IMG/VR virus record: IMGVR_UViG_3300028837_001340
Span: 1-45,496 of that record
Reading direction: 5' to 3' (one strand)
DNA from: a virus
DNA length: 45,496 nt
Below, piece after piece: positions 3,804-16,007 of the stretch. Each line of letters starts with the position of its first letter. Within the stretch, counting starts at the first letter, position 1. The translations under genes and the position numbers were made by a program. The notes under the pieces are model-generated. The model worked only from the letters and a program-made list of their open reading frames with translations. It searched no databases and had not been told where the DNA came from.

Positions 3804-4568
3804 ATGACAGACGACAATGACGGAATAGAGATATTCTGCGGGGACTCACTCGAAGTTCTATCCGCAATGAGCAATGAGATTGACTTGGTCTTCGGTGATA
3901 TACCGTATCCAGGCATGACCATCCACGACGGATCTACCAAGAAACTGAGCGACAAAGGTTGGTTCCAAGAGTTCGGCGATCTCGCATTCTTCGTTGAGCA
4001 GGCACTCACTAAGACAGGCGTCATGGCGATCCTACTCAACTCCAAAGAGTCAGTGAGGTTCCGCTACGAGTTTGTAAATCATGTGCAGAAAACGACCGGC
4101 ATGGTTTTAGTGGACGAGATCATGTGGCTCAAGCCGTCTATCATTCCAGGCCGAGCCGGTAAAGGCACGTCCAAATTCCGCCAAGCATTCGATCCAGTAT
4201 TGATCTTCGCAAAGAATCCCAAGGACTTCACCTTCAACGCGGTCAACATCGACGGCGAAGACATGCGCGAGATGAATGGCTACTCACGGATGCACGTCAA
4301 CATATTCCGAGGTATGTCCGGGAAAGATGCTGACTACGTTCAAGCCAAAAAGGATACGGACTCCGATCACAAAGGCCGATGTCCTGAGAAGCTCGTCCAA
4401 TATCTGGTCAGCATGTATACCAACGAACTCGATTATGTGTGCGATCCATTCCTCGGTAGCGGCACAACCGCCGCCGCTTGTAAACGTCTCAACCGGGATT
4501 GCCTCGGTATTGACATCAACCCCGACAACATCAAACTGGCGAAGGCCTACGTAAGGAGCGTGAAGTGA
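3804..4568 (+). CDS. Beta-class DNA N6-adenine/N4-cytosine methyltransferase
   Basis: The catalytic motif IV comes first (VFGDIPYPG, D32-I-P-Y35) and the AdoMet-binding motif I is near the C-terminus (CDPFLGSGTT, 213-222, followed by GIDINPDN). This order defines the beta class of amino-methyltransferases (N6_N4_Mtase family). The catalytic tetrad is DIPY rather than the usual DPPY or SPP[YW], so the target base (adenine N6 or cytosine N4) cannot be fixed by motif alone. At 254 residues it is a compact orphan enzyme with no restriction partner nearby, suggesting protection of phage DNA or a regulatory mark. Its TGA overlaps the GTG of the carbamoyltransferase, so the two are coupled in one operon. 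Confidence 0.88.
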   Translation: MTDDNDGIEIFCGDSLEVLSAMSNEIDLVFGDIPYPGMTIHDGSTKKLSDKGWFQEFGDLAFFVEQALTKTGVMAILLNSKESVRFRYEFVNHVQKTTGMVLVDEIMWLKPSIIPGRAGKGTSKFRQAFDPVLIFAKNPKDFTFNAVNIDGEDMREMNGYSRMHVNIFRGMSGKDADYVQAKKDTDSDHKGRCPEKLVQYLVSMYTNELDYVCDPFLGSGTTAAACKRLNRDCLGIDINPDNIKLAKAYVRSVK

Positions 4569-6196
4569 AGACACTACTACTGACCCTCGGTCACAACTCA
4601 ACAGCATGCGTCATCGATAACGATACGCGTAAAATCATCGGCTACGAAGAAGAACGACTCACTCAAATCAAAGGCGACAGCTCATTCCCCGAGATGGCGA
4701 TCCTGGAGATTGGCCGACACATCGATCTCAACACGATTGATACGTACATGATCTCGCATTGGTTTGATAACTTCGACATCAACAAGGTCACGAAATACTG
4801 GGATCCCGTTACGCTCTACGCTTTGGTATCCAATGCCGTCTATTACAATCCTGGTCTCAGTCATCATGACATGCATGCGTACAGCGCCTTAGCATTCGCC
4901 GAGAACTTCACCACCGTCGACAACACATGGCACACCTTGGTAGTGGATGGGTTCGGCAACAACCAGGAAGTCATTAGTCTATATAAGTACGTAGGCGGTC
5001 ATCCCGAATTATCCCTCGTACGACGAGCTCGCGGTTACAACTTCTCGCTTGGATTGATGTTTCAGTATGCGGCAGAGTCCTGCAACATGCATCCACATCA
5101 CGATGTCTATAAATTCCTCGGGTACCGTTCCAAGATTATGGAGAAGGAGACGCCGTACTTGAATGAGGTCGCCAGGCGATTAGCTGCTCCTATCCTCCAA
5201 CGAATTAATGTGAGTGACAGCGCCAACGATGTGGTCAAGCACGATCAACTCATCGACTACCTCGACCTGGAAGCGACGAAGAATTACTGGCGCATCACGT
5301 TTGAGGAGTTTAATGGTGACCGGATCAAGATCGGCTATCTCATCCAAGCGATACTAGAATTGGTGGTGCTCGACATCGTAAGGGTATGGGGAGTCAAGAA
5401 ATTAATGGTAGCAGGCGGCACATTCTACAACGTCCGTCTCAACCACAAGCTGGCCGACAAGTTGGAGAGGTTCTGCCCAATGCCTCTGGCCGGTGATCAA
5501 GGCGGAGCACTCGGCGCGTACCGATACACGGTCGGCCGGAAGGGGATTGAGTTCGGCAACTTATGTTGGGGACCGAGGCGTCCGCTTATCGATACCGTTC
5601 TTTCACCCCCGCGGTTCCAGACAGTCAAGTCATTCAAAGGCGCGATGCCTCTTATCCGCAACGCGTTAGATCAAGGCCTGATCGTCAATGTGGTGAGACC
5701 CGATATGGAATTCGGACCTCGAGCATTATGCCGTACCTCGACATTGGCTCGGCCAACCAAGTTCCACGTCAGTGCGATCAACACTTATAACGGCAGAGAC
5801 ACGGTGATGCCAATGGCCCCCGCCGTTTCATACGGCAAGGCGATGGACCTGTTCCACGTCGAAGACTTGCTCAAGGTACCTGGCTCCGATCGGTTTATGA
5901 TCGTGGCGCATGAGTATAAGTCACTCGACCCCGAAGGATTCCGAGGCGCAGCGCTTGAAGATGAAGGCGCATGGACTGGTCGACCTCAAATCGTGACGGC
6001 CTTGGAAGATCCTACTCTCCAACAGCTACTCGAGGAAGTCAAGTGGGATTGCGTAATCAACACCAGCTTCAACGGTCACGGCGTTCCCATAGTGTTTACC
6101 CGCAAACAGGCGATGACACTTCATTGGAAATGGTTGGGGATCCAGGAAGAAATAGAAGGGCCTGACTTCGTAACCTTCTACTGCATCGATGAGTAG
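4565..6196 (+). CDS. NodU/CmcH-family carbamoyltransferase
   Basis: This 543-residue enzyme has the two-domain plan of O-carbamoyltransferases that use carbamoyl phosphate and ATP to carbamoylate a hydroxyl group. The N-terminal ASKHA/Kae1-like half shows LGHNSTACVI at the start, the metal-binding LSHHDMHAYSAL motif (H100, H101, H104) and VVDGFGN (D128). The C-terminal half shows EFGPRAL (382-388) and NTSFNGHG (499-506). The start is GTG at 4565, overlapping the methyltransferase stop (GTGA). A tailoring role on a hydroxymethylated base fits the hydroxymethylase encoded at 11600; this substrate is an inference. The tetrapeptide after EFGPRAL is CRTS where relatives usually have G-x-RS. Alternatives are carbamoylation of a host metabolite or a surface sugar. 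Confidence 0.9.
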   Translation: MKTLLLTLGHNSTACVIDNDTRKIIGYEEERLTQIKGDSSFPEMAILEIGRHIDLNTIDTYMISHWFDNFDINKVTKYWDPVTLYALVSNAVYYNPGLSHHDMHAYSALAFAENFTTVDNTWHTLVVDGFGNNQEVISLYKYVGGHPELSLVRRARGYNFSLGLMFQYAAESCNMHPHHDVYKFLGYRSKIMEKETPYLNEVARRLAAPILQRINVSDSANDVVKHDQLIDYLDLEATKNYWRITFEEFNGDRIKIGYLIQAILELVVLDIVRVWGVKKLMVAGGTFYNVRLNHKLADKLERFCPMPLAGDQGGALGAYRYTVGRKGIEFGNLCWGPRRPLIDTVLSPPRFQTVKSFKGAMPLIRNALDQGLIVNVVRPDMEFGPRALCRTSTLARPTKFHVSAINTYNGRDTVMPMAPAVSYGKAMDLFHVEDLLKVPGSDRFMIVAHEYKSLDPEGFRGAALEDEGAWTGRPQIVTALEDPTLQQLLEEVKWDCVINTSFNGHGVPIVFTRKQAMTLHWKWLGIQEEIEGPDFVTFYCIDE

Positions 6197-9823: not shown

Positions 9824-10393
9824 ATGGCACAAGGCGACAAACGCCGGCACACGCCGGAATTCCGCGGGAGCTATGTCCATCTGGCCAAGCCCTCAAAAAT
9901 AGACGAGGACTCGGATCCCCGTTATAGCATACTCATCGTGCTGGACGAAGACGATGATGATCAAATGGATTACCTGGAATCACTCGAAGATTGGATCCAG
10001 GAAGTAGCTGAAGAAGAATGGGGCGATGTTCCCAAGCGACTGAAGATGCCGATCCGCGAAGGTGGTGATTTTGATTCTGACGACTTCGAAGGTAAGGTCG
10101 TATTGAACGTTTCATCCGCTCGCAAACCTGGTATAGTGGACTCCGAACTGGAGGCGATTGATGAGATGGACCAAGCCCAAGAGTTGTACAGCGGCGCGTG
10201 GTACAAAGTCTCGATTCGTCCCTACGCTTGGAACCACAAAACAGGTGGCAAGGGTGTAAGCTTCGCACTAGACAATGTTATGAAGATCCGTGATGATGAG
10301 CCCCTTGGCGGTTCCGCTCCTCGCGCTGAAGATGACTTTGCCGATATGAAATCCGCTGGACGTAAGAAATCCCGCAAAAAGGGTCGTCGCTAA
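9824..10393 (+). CDS. Single-stranded DNA-binding protein, DUF2815/Enc34 type
   Basis: The 189-residue protein matches the OB-fold SSB family first defined in phage Enc34 (DUF2815). Diagnostic parts are the central YSGAWYKVSIRPYAWNHK segment, followed by GKGVSFALDNVMKIRDDEPLG and the acidic AEDDFADM stretch. It ends in a basic tail (GRKKSRKKGRR) instead of the acidic tip of cellular SSBs, which may bind DNA directly. Start ATG 9824 follows TAGGAGATC. It sits beside the DUF2800 nuclease, its usual partner in phage recombination/replication modules, and would coat single strands during replication and recombination. Confidence 0.85.
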   Translation: MAQGDKRRHTPEFRGSYVHLAKPSKIDEDSDPRYSILIVLDEDDDDQMDYLESLEDWIQEVAEEEWGDVPKRLKMPIREGGDFDSDDFEGKVVLNVSSARKPGIVDSELEAIDEMDQAQELYSGAWYKVSIRPYAWNHKTGGKGVSFALDNVMKIRDDEPLGGSAPRAEDDFADMKSAGRKKSRKKGRR

Positions 10394-10720: not shown

Positions 10721-11122
10721 ATGACGTCTCCTCTCTATCTCGTCAAGGAACAACATCAGCATTTTGGTATTGCATACGACGGAGCTCCTCGTGAGTTGTC
10801 CGTGGAAGAGTCGCGATTCCGCACGTGTTGCATGATGGAAGAAGTAACAGAGTACATGGTCGCCAGCTCGCTGGAAGATCAGTACGACGCCCTCTTAGAC
10901 CTTTTGGTATTTACACTAGGCACAATGGAGCGGCAGGGCTTTCCCCTTGACGGGATAGTAGAGGTGATCTCTGCTAACATGCTAAAAGAGATTGGACCCA
11001 ATTCCGATAAGCGAGGAGGGTTCGAGCTTGACCTCAAAAAACCAGATGGATGGGAGCCGCCAGATCTACAGGCAGTTCTCGACAATGCTCTTATAAGAGC
11101 CGTGAAAGGAGTGGACGAATGA
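10721..11122 (+). CDS. MazG-like all-alpha NTP pyrophosphohydrolase
   Basis: The 133-residue protein has the helical metal-binding pattern of all-alpha NTP pyrophosphatases (MazG/dCTPase/PRA-PH superfamily): MMEEVTEY gives ExxE at E41/E44, and DQYDALLDLLVFTLGT gives D56xxxD60. It would hydrolyse an (d)NTP to its NMP and pyrophosphate. T4 gp56, which removes dCTP so that only hydroxymethyl-dCTP reaches the polymerase, belongs to the same superfamily. Here the gene heads a cassette with a dNMP kinase, a hydroxymethylase and dCMP deaminase, so dCTP is the likely substrate, by context. It starts two bases after the previous stop and its TGA overlaps the ATG of the kinase. Confidence 0.75.
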   Translation: MTSPLYLVKEQHQHFGIAYDGAPRELSVEESRFRTCCMMEEVTEYMVASSLEDQYDALLDLLVFTLGTMERQGFPLDGIVEVISANMLKEIGPNSDKRGGFELDLKKPDGWEPPDLQAVLDNALIRAVKGVDE

Positions 11123-11625
11123 TTATCTTAGAAGGACCTGACGGCATGGGGAAATCTACCCTAGCCAAATACATCGCAGGCCGGTTGAGCTGGACAGTGA
11201 ATGAGATTGGGAAGTCACCTGGTGGACCCGACCAGGTAAGAGAATACGCCGACCGATGTGTCGCGTTATCCTCCGCCCAAATCGTTCAAGACCGAGTCAC
11301 GCAAATAAGTGAGTGGATATACGGGAAGACATTCGACCGCCCCTCATTGACGGACGCTGAGTTCCTCGAATGGCAGAGGAAGATGCTACTCCAAAACCCG
11401 GTAGTCATTTACTGCCGAGTCAACGACTTAAGCAAGGTCACTCAAACTCGCGAAGAGTATGACACCGAAGAAACGATCCAACGGATCAACGACAACCTTG
11501 ATGTGCTACGCGACCGATACGACTCCGTAATGTGGGGCGGTCTATACGCCAAGCATCTCATCACCTACGACTACACAAACATGACACAGGAGGAATTGTA
11601 TGAGCTCGTTCTTAGGCGTATATAG
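11119..11625 (+). CDS. Thymidylate-kinase-like deoxynucleoside monophosphate kinase
   Basis: Starting at ATG 11119 (AAAGGAG upstream, ATGA overlap with the pyrophosphatase stop), the 168-residue product begins MIILEGPDGMGKSTLAKYI, a P-loop (GPDGMGKST) like that of dTMP kinases. QDRVTQISEWIYG near residue 57 matches the DR-x-x-x-S substrate motif of that family. Shorter than bacterial Tmk (about 210), like other phage dNMP kinases. A longer upstream in-frame start exists but lies inside the previous gene and lacks a ribosome site. Within this cassette its probable job is phosphorylating the modified dNMP (the role of T4 gp1). The last 26 bases overlap the hydroxymethylase gene. Confidence 0.8.
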   Translation: MIILEGPDGMGKSTLAKYIAGRLSWTVNEIGKSPGGPDQVREYADRCVALSSAQIVQDRVTQISEWIYGKTFDRPSLTDAEFLEWQRKMLLQNPVVIYCRVNDLSKVTQTREEYDTEETIQRINDNLDVLRDRYDSVMWGGLYAKHLITYDYTNMTQEELYELVLRRI

Positions 11626-12388
11626 AGATTTGTTCGCGTATGGTCAACCGGTATCACCACGCGGCCAGAAAATACTAGAGCTGGAGAATTACCAGTTCAC
11701 GATGGAACCTTACGAACGACTCACCACCTTTGAGGCACGAGGGTTGAACCTGCAATACTGCAAAGCGGAGTTCCTCTGGTACTTGGGCGGCGACCGATTT
11801 GATGAGTCCATCGCAGAGCACGCGATCATGTGGAAGAAGCTGAAGGACGTCGACGGTGGATTCAACTCGCAGTACGGCCAATACATTTTCGGTGACGCTC
11901 AGTTCCATTGGGTGTTGGATGAACTACGCCGCGACATCGATTCACGACGCGCCGTCATGGTCCTGCTCCAAGGTGACCACCTCCGCGAAGATAACGTTGA
12001 CGTCGTGTGCACCTACGGCCTTGGCTTCCGGATCCGAAACAACAAGCTGAATATGAGCGTGACGATGCGAAGCAACGACGCCATCTTCGGTATGACCAAC
12101 GACGTGTTCTGTTTCAGCATGATCCAGGAAATGGTGTTGGAGAATCTCAAGCGTATCTATCCAGATTTGGAGATGGGTACCTACTGTCATAAAGTGGACT
12201 CGCTCCATGTGTATGAGCGCCACTTCGAAATGCTGGAAATCTTGGTAACCGACGGTGAAAGGGGAATTTACAACATAGACATTCCCAGAGCATCCAGTTA
12301 CCTCGATTTCCAGTTCCTACAAACCTCTCCTGGTCAACCGGCACCAGAGAATCTCCCCTTGGCACATTGGCTCACTCACAATGTCTAG
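11600..12388 (+). CDS. Deoxycytidylate (dCMP) hydroxymethylase, ThyA superfamily
   Basis: The 262-residue enzyme belongs to the thymidylate synthase superfamily: DSRRAVM (114-120), catalytic Cys137 in VDVVCTYGLGF, MRSNDAIFGMTNDV (156-169) and SLHVYERHF (201-209). At the position that is Asn177 in E. coli ThyA (needed for dUMP), this protein has Asp168. The same Asn-to-Asp change marks T4 gp42 dCMP hydroxymethylase, whose sequence as I recall it also has MRSND, FG and ND at these places. The predicted reaction is dCMP plus methylene-tetrahydrofolate to 5-hydroxymethyl-dCMP. A strong AGGAGG site precedes ATG 11600, inside the 3' end of the kinase gene. Alternative: a CMP or dUMP hydroxymethylase. 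Confidence 0.85.
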   Translation: MSSFLGVYRDLFAYGQPVSPRGQKILELENYQFTMEPYERLTTFEARGLNLQYCKAEFLWYLGGDRFDESIAEHAIMWKKLKDVDGGFNSQYGQYIFGDAQFHWVLDELRRDIDSRRAVMVLLQGDHLREDNVDVVCTYGLGFRIRNNKLNMSVTMRSNDAIFGMTNDVFCFSMIQEMVLENLKRIYPDLEMGTYCHKVDSLHVYERHFEMLEILVTDGERGIYNIDIPRASSYLDFQFLQTSPGQPAPENLPLAHWLTHNV

Positions 12389-12824
12389 GCCTTCCCACGA
12401 CGAGTACTTCCTCGAGATGGCGAAGCTTGCAGCGACTCGCTCGACTTGTGCTCGACGCCAGGTCGGGTGTGTCCTGGTCAACAAGCGAAATCATGTCCTG
12501 GCAACCGGCTACAACGGTGTTGCCGCGGGGGTGCCTCACTGCATAGAGACCCCTTGCGCTGGAGCGACGGCCGCCTCGGGTGAATCACTTGACTTGTGCC
12601 AGGCGATACACGCGGAGGCGAATGCTCTCCTTCAATGCAAGGACGTGTTTGAGATCGAGACGGTTTACTGCACCGCAAGTCCGTGCGTTCACTGCACCAA
12701 GTTGTTGATGAACACCTCCGCCCGTGTCCTGGTTTTTGACGAGGTGTATCCCGGCGTAGGCCTCGACATGTGGCTGAGCTCCGACCCCGGCCGCTCCTTT
12801 CGGACACCTCAATTCCTCGTTTAG
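12381..12824 (+). CDS. dCMP deaminase
   Basis: The 147-residue zinc enzyme has the cytidine/deoxycytidylate deaminase motifs: HAE at 77-79 and SPCVHC with PCxxC at 101-105. Additional N-terminal cysteines and the H53-C54...C59 group resemble the second zinc site of T4-type, allosterically controlled dCMP deaminases. It converts dCMP to dUMP, feeding dTTP synthesis and drawing down the unmodified dCMP pool. The ATG overlaps the hydroxymethylase stop by eight bases. Together with the three preceding genes it forms a compact set equivalent to the T4 cytosine-replacement enzymes (gp56, gp1, gp42, cd). Confidence 0.9.
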   Translation: MSRPSHDEYFLEMAKLAATRSTCARRQVGCVLVNKRNHVLATGYNGVAAGVPHCIETPCAGATAASGESLDLCQAIHAEANALLQCKDVFEIETVYCTASPCVHCTKLLMNTSARVLVFDEVYPGVGLDMWLSSDPGRSFRTPQFLV

Positions 12825-12940: not shown

Positions 12941-13825
12941 ATGTCAAACCTTAACGAAATGAACCACATTAACGAAGCACTCTCAAACGCTTTCTTCGAT
13001 GTGGTTGAAGAAGAAGTCCGGACGGAATCCGGTTTGGTTATCCCCGGTAAGAAAGTAATCTGCCGCAAGGATGACAACACCCCTCTCGCGATAGTCGGCG
13101 ACAAGTATAAGACGGTGACCAACGAGGAAGTATTCTCCTCCTTCACCAATATCCTGGCTCGCTCCGACATCAACCTGGAAGGTGCCGAGGTATCCACCGA
13201 GTTTAGTCACGGCGGCGCACGGACTTTTGCACAAATCATCTTCCCCTCTCACGAGATCAAGGTCGGTGACAAAGACGCAACCGCCCTCCGGGTAATTGCT
13301 CGCAACTCTTATGATGGATCCACAGCGTTCATTGTCCAGGCCGGCGGATACCGCTTCGTTTGTTCTAATGGCCAGATCATGGGTGACAACATCAGCTACT
13401 TCCACGGCAAGCACACTCCGAGCCTGGACGTGAAGATGGCGGCGGAACATATCTCAAATGTGCTGGACTCGTTTGAGAATTCCAAGGAGTGGTTTGAATC
13501 ACTTCGCACCAAGACAGTGAACGATCCCCAAGCATACGCGTGTTTGGCCTTCGCTTCACGCAGCACCGAGGCGGCGCGAGTTGGTTATGTGGATCGCGAG
13601 GAAATGCCACGCAGCATGAGAATGTTGTTTGACTCCTGGTTGACTCACAAGAAGACAATGGGCAACAACGCTTGGTCACTGTATAACTGCATGACCGCTT
13701 TCTCCTCTCACTGGGGTGACGACAAGGACGAGCAACATGCGAATGCCGCATCCTCCAAGTTCCGCCGTGAAGATCGGATCCGCGAGACGCTTTCCTCAGC
13801 CCCTTGGTTGAAGATCGCAGCCTAA
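12941..13825 (+). CDS. DUF932 phage/plasmid protein, 294 aa
   Basis: The start at ATG 12941 is set by AAGGAG at 12929-12934 inside a GATC-flanked ribosome module; an upstream in-frame ATG at 12857 lies in the promoter and is not credible. The protein matches the DUF932 (phage/plasmid-like, TIGR03299-type) family: early SGLVIPGKKVICRKDD, IVGDKYKTVTNEEVFSSF, GGARTFAQIIFP and RFVCSNGQIMG segments, ending with a helical domain (AWSLYNCMTAFSSHW). Members are found in phages, plasmids and ICEs near replication genes; biochemical role not established. It is followed by a UUCG hairpin. Confidence 0.8.
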   Translation: MSNLNEMNHINEALSNAFFDVVEEEVRTESGLVIPGKKVICRKDDNTPLAIVGDKYKTVTNEEVFSSFTNILARSDINLEGAEVSTEFSHGGARTFAQIIFPSHEIKVGDKDATALRVIARNSYDGSTAFIVQAGGYRFVCSNGQIMGDNISYFHGKHTPSLDVKMAAEHISNVLDSFENSKEWFESLRTKTVNDPQAYACLAFASRSTEAARVGYVDREEMPRSMRMLFDSWLTHKKTMGNNAWSLYNCMTAFSSHWGDDKDEQHANAASSKFRREDRIRETLSSAPWLKIAA

Positions 13826-13831
13826 CTAACC

Positions 13832-13847
13832 GGGGACTTCGGTCCCC
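13832..13847 (+). terminator. UUCG tetraloop hairpin
   Basis: GGGGAC-TTCG-GTCCCC, identical in stem and loop to the hairpin at 9778, six bases after the DUF932 stop. Followed by CTCACTTTTGGAG, so the T-run also begins the next ribosome site. Confidence 0.7.
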
Positions 13848-13867
13848 CTCACTTTTGGAGTGCAAGT

Positions 13868-14038
13868 ATGAGTCCGCAGGATTTCGAAAAGCTGTACCGA
13901 GCAGTACGTCATTTAGGCACCATCGACGAGGAGGCTCTGCAAAGGGCGTACATCGATTTAACGAAACACGAGAAGGGTTGCCTGACGGTGACAATCCAGT
14001 GCTTGGCGAAGATGGTCGAGTACGACTTGAAGCACTAA
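13868..14038 (+). CDS. Hypothetical protein, 56 aa
   Basis: ATG 13868 has TTTGGAG eight bases upstream and lies between a UUCG hairpin and the next promoter. The product (start MSPQDFEKLYRAVRHLGTID) looks fully helical, mixed charge, with no motif I recognise. TAA at 14036-14038. It would escape a 60-residue cutoff. Function unknown. Confidence 0.65.
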   Translation: MSPQDFEKLYRAVRHLGTIDEEALQRAYIDLTKHEKGCLTVTIQCLAKMVEYDLKH

Positions 14039-14041
14039 TCC

Positions 14042-14071
14042 TTTACATTCGGACATTACCTGTAGTAGAAT
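14042..14071 (+). promoter_or_regulatory. Recurrent phage promoter, divergent copy
   Basis: TTTACA at 14042-14047 and TAGAAT at 14066-14071 with an 18-base spacer. The second half of the dyad is GGAC rather than GTAA, so operator control may differ here. Leads to the ORF at 14098. Confidence 0.6.
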
Positions 14072-14097
14072 ACTCATTCAATTCAAGGAGAATGAAA

Positions 14098-14211
14098 ATG
14101 TCAACAGCCACTTTAAAGAAAATCCGTAAGTCACTCATGGAAACTCAAACCCTGGAACAACAATTCGGTGAGTCAACGGCCATCCACCCCCGCTGGAGTT
14201 GTTCAAGCTAA
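14098..14211 (+). pseudogene. Short ORF, 37 aa, probably a truncated gene fused to the polymerase remnant
   Basis: ATG 14098 has an ideal AAGGAG site (14085-14090) and its own promoter. The product starts with a basic helix (MSTATLKKIRKSLMETQTL) and then runs, from about residue 25, into a stretch (ESTAIHPRWSCSS) that appears to be the polymerase-coding DNA read in the wrong frame: the other frame reads VNGHPPPLELFKLINKGW there. The simplest reading is that a deletion near 14165-14175 joined the start of one gene to the middle of the polymerase gene. Alternatively the 37-residue protein is genuine. Confidence 0.45.
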
Positions 14212-16007
14212 TCAACAAAGGCTGGACGGTGAGAGCCTGGAACTCTGAATTTGAAAGAGCGGTGTGGGATCACGTTGCCGTCCCCTCATTGGGTTGGGAT
14301 CCAGTTCCCTTTGAGCAATGGTTCGACACGATGTCGTTGGGTTATACGCACGCTCTGCCGGGGAAGCTAGAGAAGGCGGGCGAGGTCCTGGAGCTGGTCA
14401 CCCAAAAGAACAAGAACGGCACCCGCCTCATTACCAAATTCTGCAAACCTCGTAAGCCAACCAAGAACAATCTTGCCGTCCGCAACAAGCCGGTCGACTT
14501 CCCGGAGGACTTCGAGTTATTCGGCGAGTACTGCGACGATGATGTCCGGGTAGAATGCGGTGTCTATAACGCGCTCCCACGCCCTCAGTTCCGAGTTGGT
14601 GAGCATATAACCTGGAGGACCACATGCAGGATGAACGAGTACGGTGTCAAGCTCGACATACCTGCAGTCATCGCGGTCCAAGAGATGCTGGATTACTGGC
14701 GGGAGAAACGGCTCGGCGACCTGGTCGAACTCACAGGCGGCGCGGTCCACACCGACGGACAACGAGACAAGGCACTCGCCTGGTTGGCGACCAAGGACTG
14801 TCATCTGGACGGGTACACCAAGGACGACTTAGCCGAAGCGTTGAAGCACGACATCGACCCCGACGCTCGTAAGTTCATACTCATCCGCCAGGAACTCAGT
14901 CAAGTCTCCACCAAGAAATACTCCGCGATGCTCAACGTCCAGTGGGGCGAGCGAACTCACAACAACATGGTTTACCACCGGGCGACGACAGGCCGGAACG
15001 GCGGATCGGGATTGCAGCTACACAACTTTCCCCGGGATGCGGTGAGCAAAGACATCAACGTGATCGAGCTCGCAATCGAGATGGTGATGAACCGTCAATA
15101 CGTCGAGCTGCAGTTGGTGTTTGGTAATCCCATCGATGTCGCCAAGCAGTTACTCCGGGCGATGATCATACCGGACGACGGTGAGATCTTCTACTGCGCT
15201 GACTTCTCATCGGTCGAGAACATGGGGACGGTGTGGATTTGCCAGGATCCGGTCGGCCTTGAAGTGTTTGAAAACGGCGAGGATCAATACCGAGCTTTTG
15301 CCGCCAAGCAATTCAACATCAAAGCTGAGGACGTGAGCGACGTGATACGAACCGAGTCCAAGGCAACCATTCTCGGATCCATGTTCGGCGCCGGCTGGAA
15401 GACGATCTTTGCTACCAACCAGCAGAAGGGAATCCCGATGACTCAGCAACAGGCCAAGGACAACGTGAAAGAGTTCCGGGCTCAGTACGCCGTGACCTCC
15501 GAGTCCTGGTATGAACTGGCCGAAGTCGTGAAGGAGGTCGTGGAGCATCCCGGTCGGATGGTCGAGTACAAAGGCCTGAAGTTCAAGGTCAATGACGACT
15601 ACCTCTGGATCCGCCTCCACTCTGGTCGGTTCCTGGCATACTACCACCCCAAGAATGAGTGGGTGATGACGCCGTGGAAGGAGAAGAAATACCAGCCGAC
15701 CATCATGGGGTTGAACGGCAAACAGCAGTGGGTCCGTCAAACCATGACCCCTAGCAAGATCATTGAGAATATCGTCCAGGCGACCTGCCGTGATTTGTTG
15801 ATGTACAGCCAAACCAATCTCCACGAAGCAGGGTTCCACGTCCTGTTGAATGTCCACGATGAAGTGCTCTCGAGCCAGGTGCCTGACTTCATGGAAATGG
15901 AGGAGTTCATCGAGATCATGGTCCGCATGCCGGACTGGGCTTACGGCCTGGAGCGGGCATTCCCCCTCAAAGCCGAGGGATACACCGCTCTGAGATACCG
16001 AAAATAA
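14199..16007 (+). CDS. Family A DNA polymerase, N-terminally truncated (lacks Exo I)
   Basis: Palm motifs are intact: motif A CADFSSVE (D335, E340), motif B RTESKATILGSMFGAG (R384, K388), and motif C NVHDEV (H553-D554). Of the 3'-5' exonuclease domain only Exo II (RAWNSEFERAVWD, residues 12-24) and Exo III (YCDDD, 111-115) remain. The Exo I motif (D-x-E, usually DFET in phage relatives about 50 residues before Exo II) is missing, because the frame closes at TGA 14169-14171. No good start exists: TTG 14199 lacks a spaced ribosome site. The enzyme should still polymerise but, as encoded, would lack proofreading. A deletion, frameshift or assembly error could explain it. Confidence 0.85.
   Translation: MFKLINKGWTVRAWNSEFERAVWDHVAVPSLGWDPVPFEQWFDTMSLGYTHALPGKLEKAGEVLELVTQKNKNGTRLITKFCKPRKPTKNNLAVRNKPVDFPEDFELFGEYCDDDVRVECGVYNALPRPQFRVGEHITWRTTCRMNEYGVKLDIPAVIAVQEMLDYWREKRLGDLVELTGGAVHTDGQRDKALAWLATKDCHLDGYTKDDLAEALKHDIDPDARKFILIRQELSQVSTKKYSAMLNVQWGERTHNNMVYHRATTGRNGGSGLQLHNFPRDAVSKDINVIELAIEMVMNRQYVELQLVFGNPIDVAKQLLRAMIIPDDGEIFYCADFSSVENMGTVWICQDPVGLEVFENGEDQYRAFAAKQFNIKAEDVSDVIRTESKATILGSMFGAGWKTIFATNQQKGIPMTQQQAKDNVKEFRAQYAVTSESWYELAEVVKEVVEHPGRMVEYKGLKFKVNDDYLWIRLHSGRFLAYYHPKNEWVMTPWKEKKYQPTIMGLNGKQQWVRQTMTPSKIIENIVQATCRDLLMYSQTNLHEAGFHVLLNVHDEVLSSQVPDFMEMEEFIEIMVRMPDWAYGLERAFPLKAEGYTALRYRK

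Follow-up and report, generated by a model that had tools for sequence, protein, structure and literature searches.

We asked what kind of DNA would be made by a phage that carries a compact block of overlapping nucleotide-metabolism genes, and whether that block holds its whole modification pathway. The block lies at 10721-12824 of a 45,496-base linear virus record (IMG/VR IMGVR_UViG_3300028837_001340), the whole of which is called the window below. A sequence-only reading had taken the block for a complete cassette producing 5-hydroxymethylcytosine (5hmC) DNA. We consider it highly probable that the window encodes a five-gene pathway replacing cytosine with 5-carbamoyloxymethylcytosine (5cmdC) in phage DNA.

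Gene content and layout of the window

The four open reading frames of the block and their coordinates were borne out, all on the + strand, with families assigned by Pfam and PHROG and with overlaps of 4 bases (11119-11122), 26 bases (11600-11625) and 8 bases (12381-12388). The cassette extends beyond these bounds, its fifth gene being found 4.5 kb upstream, at 4565-6196. The genes concerned are the following:

4565..6196, + strand: carbamoyltransferase homologue, 543 aa, GTG start (PF16861, PF02543, phrog_1601, identity to a purified enzyme)
10721..11122, + strand: MazG/PRA-PH superfamily dNTP pyrophosphatase, 133 aa (PF01503)
11119..11625, + strand: Tmk/YorR-like P-loop nucleotide kinase, 168 aa (phrog_761, structure model)
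11600..12388, + strand: ThyA-superfamily enzyme, predicted dCMP hydroxymethylase, 262 aa (Pfam, PHROG, alignment)
12381..12824, + strand: dCMP deaminase, 147 aa (PF00383, HAE and PCxxC zinc motifs)
9824..10393, + strand: Enc34-type ssDNA-binding protein (PF10991, E 6e-36), context only
3804..4568, + strand: N6/N4-type DNA methyltransferase (PF01555, E 8e-32; DIPY motif)

The kinase gene was read from the ATG at 11119 (the mechanical open reading frame begins at 11050), and Shine-Dalgarno-like sequences precede both this start (AAAGGAG) and the one at 11600 (AGGAGG). Helicase, exonuclease and ssDNA-binding genes separate the carbamoyltransferase from the MazG gene in the window and in its nearest relative, with gaps of 4.5 and 6.6 kb, and the Enc34-type gene is found in this interval of the window. 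Considering this distance, co-regulation of the carbamoyltransferase with the other four genes is weaker here than in other members of the group.

The methyltransferase gene at 3804-4568 shares its last 4 bases with the start of the carbamoyltransferase gene. It likely encodes an adenine methyltransferase and was ruled out as a part of the cassette, having no homologue at other carbamoyltransferase loci; its modification is probably a separate one, and adenine methylation could coexist with modified cytosine. Downstream of the block, a family A DNA polymerase frame (13804-16007) was read from a TTG at 14199, its true start being uncertain, and the frame before it overlaps it in another frame.

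Tail genes of the lambda type (tape measure, central fibre J, tail terminator, connectors) occupy the right arm of the window. The record ends inside the connector region, and the open reading frames scanned included neither a terminase nor a capsid gene. It is therefore reasonable to speak of a siphovirus, and the record is apparently a genome fragment. The sequence-only reading had remarked on such a cassette in a siphovirus rather than a T4-like phage; the classification is correct, but the occurrence is not unusual, as Xanthomonas phage Xp15 has the five genes contiguously. A DNA-level search of phage records with the first 25 kb of the window gave no match.

Predicted activities of the five enzymes

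The product of 11600-12388 matched Pfam Thymidylat_synt (E 2.5e-19) and the PHROG thymidylate synthase family (E 3e-40), and was aligned with E. coli ThyA, T4 gp42, 44RR gp42, the SPO1 dUMP hydroxymethylase and relatives. Around residues 137-168, the alignment places Cys137 as the nucleophile, Thr138 at the position of E. coli ThyA His147 and, as first read, Asp168 at that of Asn177. The same Thr (147) and Asp (177) occur in T4 gp42 and 44RR gp42, and Asp was found at 177 in 10/10 members of the aligned set. The catalytic Cys, the phosphate-binding Arg and Ser and the folate/base residues are all kept (also aligned were Arg126, Asp160, Ser167, His203 and Tyr205). As in gp42, the protein lacks the APVAI tail that closes ThyA, and Trp83 is replaced, by Leu in the window enzyme and by Val in gp42.

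The best solved match was the T4 dCMP hydroxymethylase (E 1e-20), followed by the CMP hydroxymethylase MilA, E. coli ThyA being a weaker match (about 3e-8 at best). MilA is likewise a ThyA-superfamily hydroxymethylase acting on cytosine with Asp at the specificity position, but it prefers CMP via Lys133 and Ala176, whereas the window enzyme keeps Arg (126) and Ser (167) of the deoxynucleotide enzymes.

Positions 147 and 177 were, among ThyA sites, the most strongly tied to modified DNA in the MetaGPA study of Yang et al. 2021 (PMC8670742), which also reported that the Asn177Asp change can by itself make a canonical ThyA use dCMP, the product being 5mdCMP. Asp177 therefore selects cytosine but by itself does not settle methyl versus hydroxymethyl, as it shows base choice and not the hydroxylation step. 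Considering Asp177 together with Thr147, T4 gp42 as the closest structure, and a near-constant partner whose tested homologue needs a hydroxymethyl acceptor, the prediction of a dCMP hydroxymethylase working in cytosine replacement is well supported. To this extent the original reading of hydroxymethyl-dC chemistry stands, while plain 5hmC as the end product is unlikely because the phage also encodes a 5hmC carbamoyltransferase homologue. The window fragment yielded neither a canonical ThyA nor a ThyX, so dTMP would depend on the host or on genes beyond the fragment.

The product of 4565-6196 matched the C and N carbamoyltransferase domains (PF16861, E 3e-22; PF02543, E 3e-10), both above cut-off, as well as phrog_1601 (Nol-like carbamoyltransferase, E 7e-56) and TobZ (E 2e-10). 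Over residues 1-520 it shares 37% identity with the purified 5hmC carbamoyltransferase of Yang et al. 2021, whose sequence is printed in PMC8670742. That enzyme makes 5cmdC; its substrates are hydroxymethyl-dCTP and hydroxymethyl-dC DNA, the single-stranded form being carbamoylated several-fold better than the double-stranded one, and it is inactive on methyl-dCTP and hydroxymethyl-dUTP (PMC8670742). The presence of a homologue of so specific an enzyme argues that the upstream product is hydroxymethyl-dCMP and the final base 5cmdC. We also compared TobZ W408, G421 and R423, which PMC8670742 singles out as tied to modified DNA. With a numbering that assumes six extra N-terminal residues on the crystallised chain, the equivalents are Val, Cys and Thr in the window protein and Ile, Cys and Thr in the validated enzyme, the Cys and Thr thus being common to both at two of the three positions (G421, R423). 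On these likenesses 4565-6196 should be the fifth gene of the cassette, a predicted 5hmC carbamoyltransferase, which was overlooked at first because it is displaced from MazG here, the two genes directly adjoining in most relatives.

The kinase has a Pfam P-loop kinase match and a match to phrog_761 (thymidylate kinase, E 1e-19). A structure model from an alignment of the window and IMG/VR loci only reached a pLDDT of 94.7 (a single-sequence fold, at 36, was discarded), and it resembled B. subtilis YorR (3kb2, Z 17.3), NadR (Z 13.5 to 15.5) and thymidylate kinases (Z about 13.5). T4 gp1 was absent among the structural matches listed, though the two may be related. From this model a nucleoside-monophosphate kinase is plausible, and the gene context would make hydroxymethyl-dCMP its substrate.

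The pyrophosphatase matched PF01503 (PRA-PH, MazG superfamily; E 4e-7) and keeps, like its relatives, the acidic MazG motif EExxE...DxxxD. Its nearest solved MazG relative is DR2231, a dUTP pyrophosphatase, and it is predicted to convert dCTP, possibly dUTP, to the dNMP. The deaminase was assigned by PF00383 (dCMP_cyt_deam, E 3e-21), by the PHROG dCMP deaminase family (E 2e-41) and by solved dCMP deaminases (2hvv, E 4e-18; 1vq2, E 2e-10).

The logic is that of T4 gp42, gp56, gp1 and cd, in which dCTP removal is joined to hydroxymethyl-dCMP synthesis, and the active-site residues of the ThyA-like enzyme are those of gp42; the kinase and the pyrophosphatase are likened to gp1 and gp56 by their predicted function, family kinship apart. 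T4 differs in having glucosyltransferases and a glucose cap, while the window cassette is compact and its predicted cap is carbamoyl. No DNA glucosyltransferase was seen among the open reading frames scanned in the window fragment, which took in part of its small frames.

Distribution of the cassette among viruses

We looked for the same genes at other viral loci. The five IMG/VR loci closest to the ThyA-like protein all had the carbamoyltransferase, MazG, kinase, ThyA and deaminase genes. Broader relatives came from an alignment-based scan of viral contigs, as a single-sequence carbamoyltransferase scan of such contigs had confirmed none. The close carbamoyltransferase type was present at 68 IMG/VR loci, 61 of them non-identical, and a ThyA homologue stood within the fetched flanks in 57 of the 61 (of the four others, three are contigs 6 to 11 kb long); the loci lack phylogenetic independence, and the counts are descriptive. 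Asp177 was found in 63/63 ThyA genes at these loci and Asn in none. All five genes occurred at 24 loci, in the order carbamoyltransferase, MazG, kinase, ThyA, deaminase in 23 of them, so that the arrangement is not due to chance. Twelve loci with distant viral carbamoyltransferases had none of the four partner genes. As a control, His147 and Asn177 were present at 80/80 canonical viral ThyA loci, where the close carbamoyltransferase type was found at none and the distant type at one. Among bacterial genome contigs, one distant ThyA relative was retrieved, in a Methylococcaceae MAG; it had no carbamoyltransferase nearby and hence allows no host inference.

At some carbamoyltransferase loci the Asp177 ThyA is present as two paralogues, as in Bacteroides phage BF503P2 (L009, 7061-7867 and 9941-10621) and at L038, L041, L044, L050, L058 and L060. 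One paralogue of such pairs lacks the conserved Trp80, and in BF503P2 also Glu58, which suggests that the second copy may be specialised or inactive.

Another variable feature is the gene directly before the carbamoyltransferase. In Xp15/HHU4-type cassettes its product is a conserved protein, about 270 aa long, that has four invariant cysteines and matches no Pfam family (L008 12548-13378, which is Xp15 gp40; L007 12011-12826; about 25 other loci). This protein was not found in the window's group, and in the relatives L004-L006 its position is filled by the Enc34-type ssDNA-binding protein; profile comparison gave no detectable similarity between the two, and thus no support for gp40 being an Enc34-type protein.

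The full cassette was also present in cultured phages, namely Xp15 and the Acinetobacter phages HHU4 and Effie, as well as in the MD-2021a assembly. Xp15 gp39-gp35 are the same five genes, with the same strand and order as in the window; Xp15 differs in that the genes are contiguous, with gp40 before the carbamoyltransferase, and in having other replication genes and an annotated ThyX. HHU4 has a canonical ThyA (L007 786-1637; Asn177, His147, VAV tail) beside the Asp177 enzyme, and thus provides an internal control for the residue assignment.

A related arrangement exists in Stenotrophomonas phage AXL3 (L015 3638-7672), with MazG, kinase, Asp177 ThyA and deaminase in the same order and no carbamoyltransferase in the stretch read. 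Phage PW916 (L016 934-4846) likewise has the cassette with an Asp177 ThyA. In both phages a class I SAM methyltransferase takes the carbamoyltransferase's place, and the product could be a methylated hydroxymethylcytosine. The ThyA of AXL3 was published as a thymidylate synthase, and AXL3 DNA resisted 35/37 restriction enzymes, every tested one with G/C in its site included, being cut only by two that recognise A/T-only sites (PMC7504290). This resistance agrees with modified cytosine (or guanine) in phages that have the Asp enzyme, and has no bearing on the carbamoyl step.

In the MetaGPA study, the carbamoyltransferase, Asp177 thymidylate synthase, PRA-PH pyrophosphatase and dCMP deaminase formed a co-occurring network in DNA selected for modified cytosine (PMC8670742). 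The window has the same Pfam set (carbamoyltransferase N and C, thymidylate synthase, PRA-PH, dCMP deaminase), and its cassette joins this already known 5cmdC carbamoyltransferase network. It differs in the 4.5 kb that set the carbamoyltransferase apart, and in the Tmk/YorR-like kinase, a consistent member here that goes unnamed in the part of the paper giving its top co-occurring domains.

Proposed pathway and alternatives

We propose that the MazG-type enzyme would convert dCTP to dCMP, lowering dCTP and feeding the substrate to the ThyA-like enzyme (Asp168), which very probably, from its residues and homology, transfers the methylene of methylene-THF onto C5 of dCMP and hydrates it to give hydroxymethyl-dCMP, a conversion demonstrated for T4 gp42, which has the same Asp. 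The Tmk/YorR-like kinase would phosphorylate this product and host NDP kinase would bring it to the triphosphate, while the deaminase, going by its family, would turn leftover dCMP into dUMP for thymidylate synthesis and deplete dCTP further. The carbamoyltransferase, with carbamoyl phosphate and ATP, would then cap the hydroxymethyl group on hydroxymethyl-dCTP or on replicating single-stranded DNA; both substrates were demonstrated for its homologue (PMC8670742) and are extended to the window protein by analogy. Incorporation by the phage family A polymerase would lead to genome-wide replacement, whose likely purpose would be resistance to host restriction.

Three other readings were weighed against this pathway. 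The DNA might hold plain 5hmC, with the carbamoyltransferase acting elsewhere, for example on a surface sugar or a small molecule. This would suit the distance of its gene from the four-gene block, and the 12 distant loci indeed show that some viral Nol-like carbamoyltransferases have no ThyA homologue nearby. We nonetheless regard it as unlikely, because the window protein belongs to the subfamily almost always paired with Asp177 ThyA, directly adjoins MazG in most relatives and resembles an enzyme proven on 5hmC. We give still less credit to the idea that the ThyA-like enzyme resembles that of phage XP12 in methylating dCMP, which would lead to 5-methylcytosine DNA. The 5mdCMP made by the Asn177Asp form of canonical ThyA speaks for it; the absence of the tail that seals the active site and the replaced Trp83, both as in T4 gp42, speak against it, as do the hydroxymethylases among the best solved matches and the inactivity of the tested carbamoyltransferase on 5mdCTP.

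An ordinary thymidylate supply, in which dCMP deaminase, thymidylate synthase, kinase and dUTPase work without any base modification, agrees with the automated annotation of relatives as thymidylate synthase and thymidylate kinase, and with DR2231 as the nearest solved MazG relative. We judge it highly improbable, given Asp177 throughout the aligned members against Asn in all 80 canonical viral ThyA. Moreover, HHU4, with its second, canonical ThyA, and Xp15, with its annotated ThyX, are unlikely to draw their thymidylate from the Asp enzyme.

Using a metagenome gene, the 2021 study produced 5cmdC in vitro, and its authors predicted that the base occurs in an unknown phage (PMC8670742). That paper was the only one found to name the base in the open-access literature, where no report of 5cmdC in a virion or an isolated phage turned up, a null result that counts as weak evidence. 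What our analysis adds is a kinase that regularly belongs to the pathway, and the full cassette in the cultured phages Xp15, HHU4 and Effie, which makes 5cmdC directly testable in virions. On balance, we think it probable that 5cmdC wholly replaces cytosine in the virions of widely spread tailed phages sharing a horizontally moving five-gene cassette, these three included, the carbamoyl group being added at the nucleotide or replication-fork stage. A carbamoyl-capped cytosine would be a small, uncharged counter to restriction, distinct from the glucose of T4.
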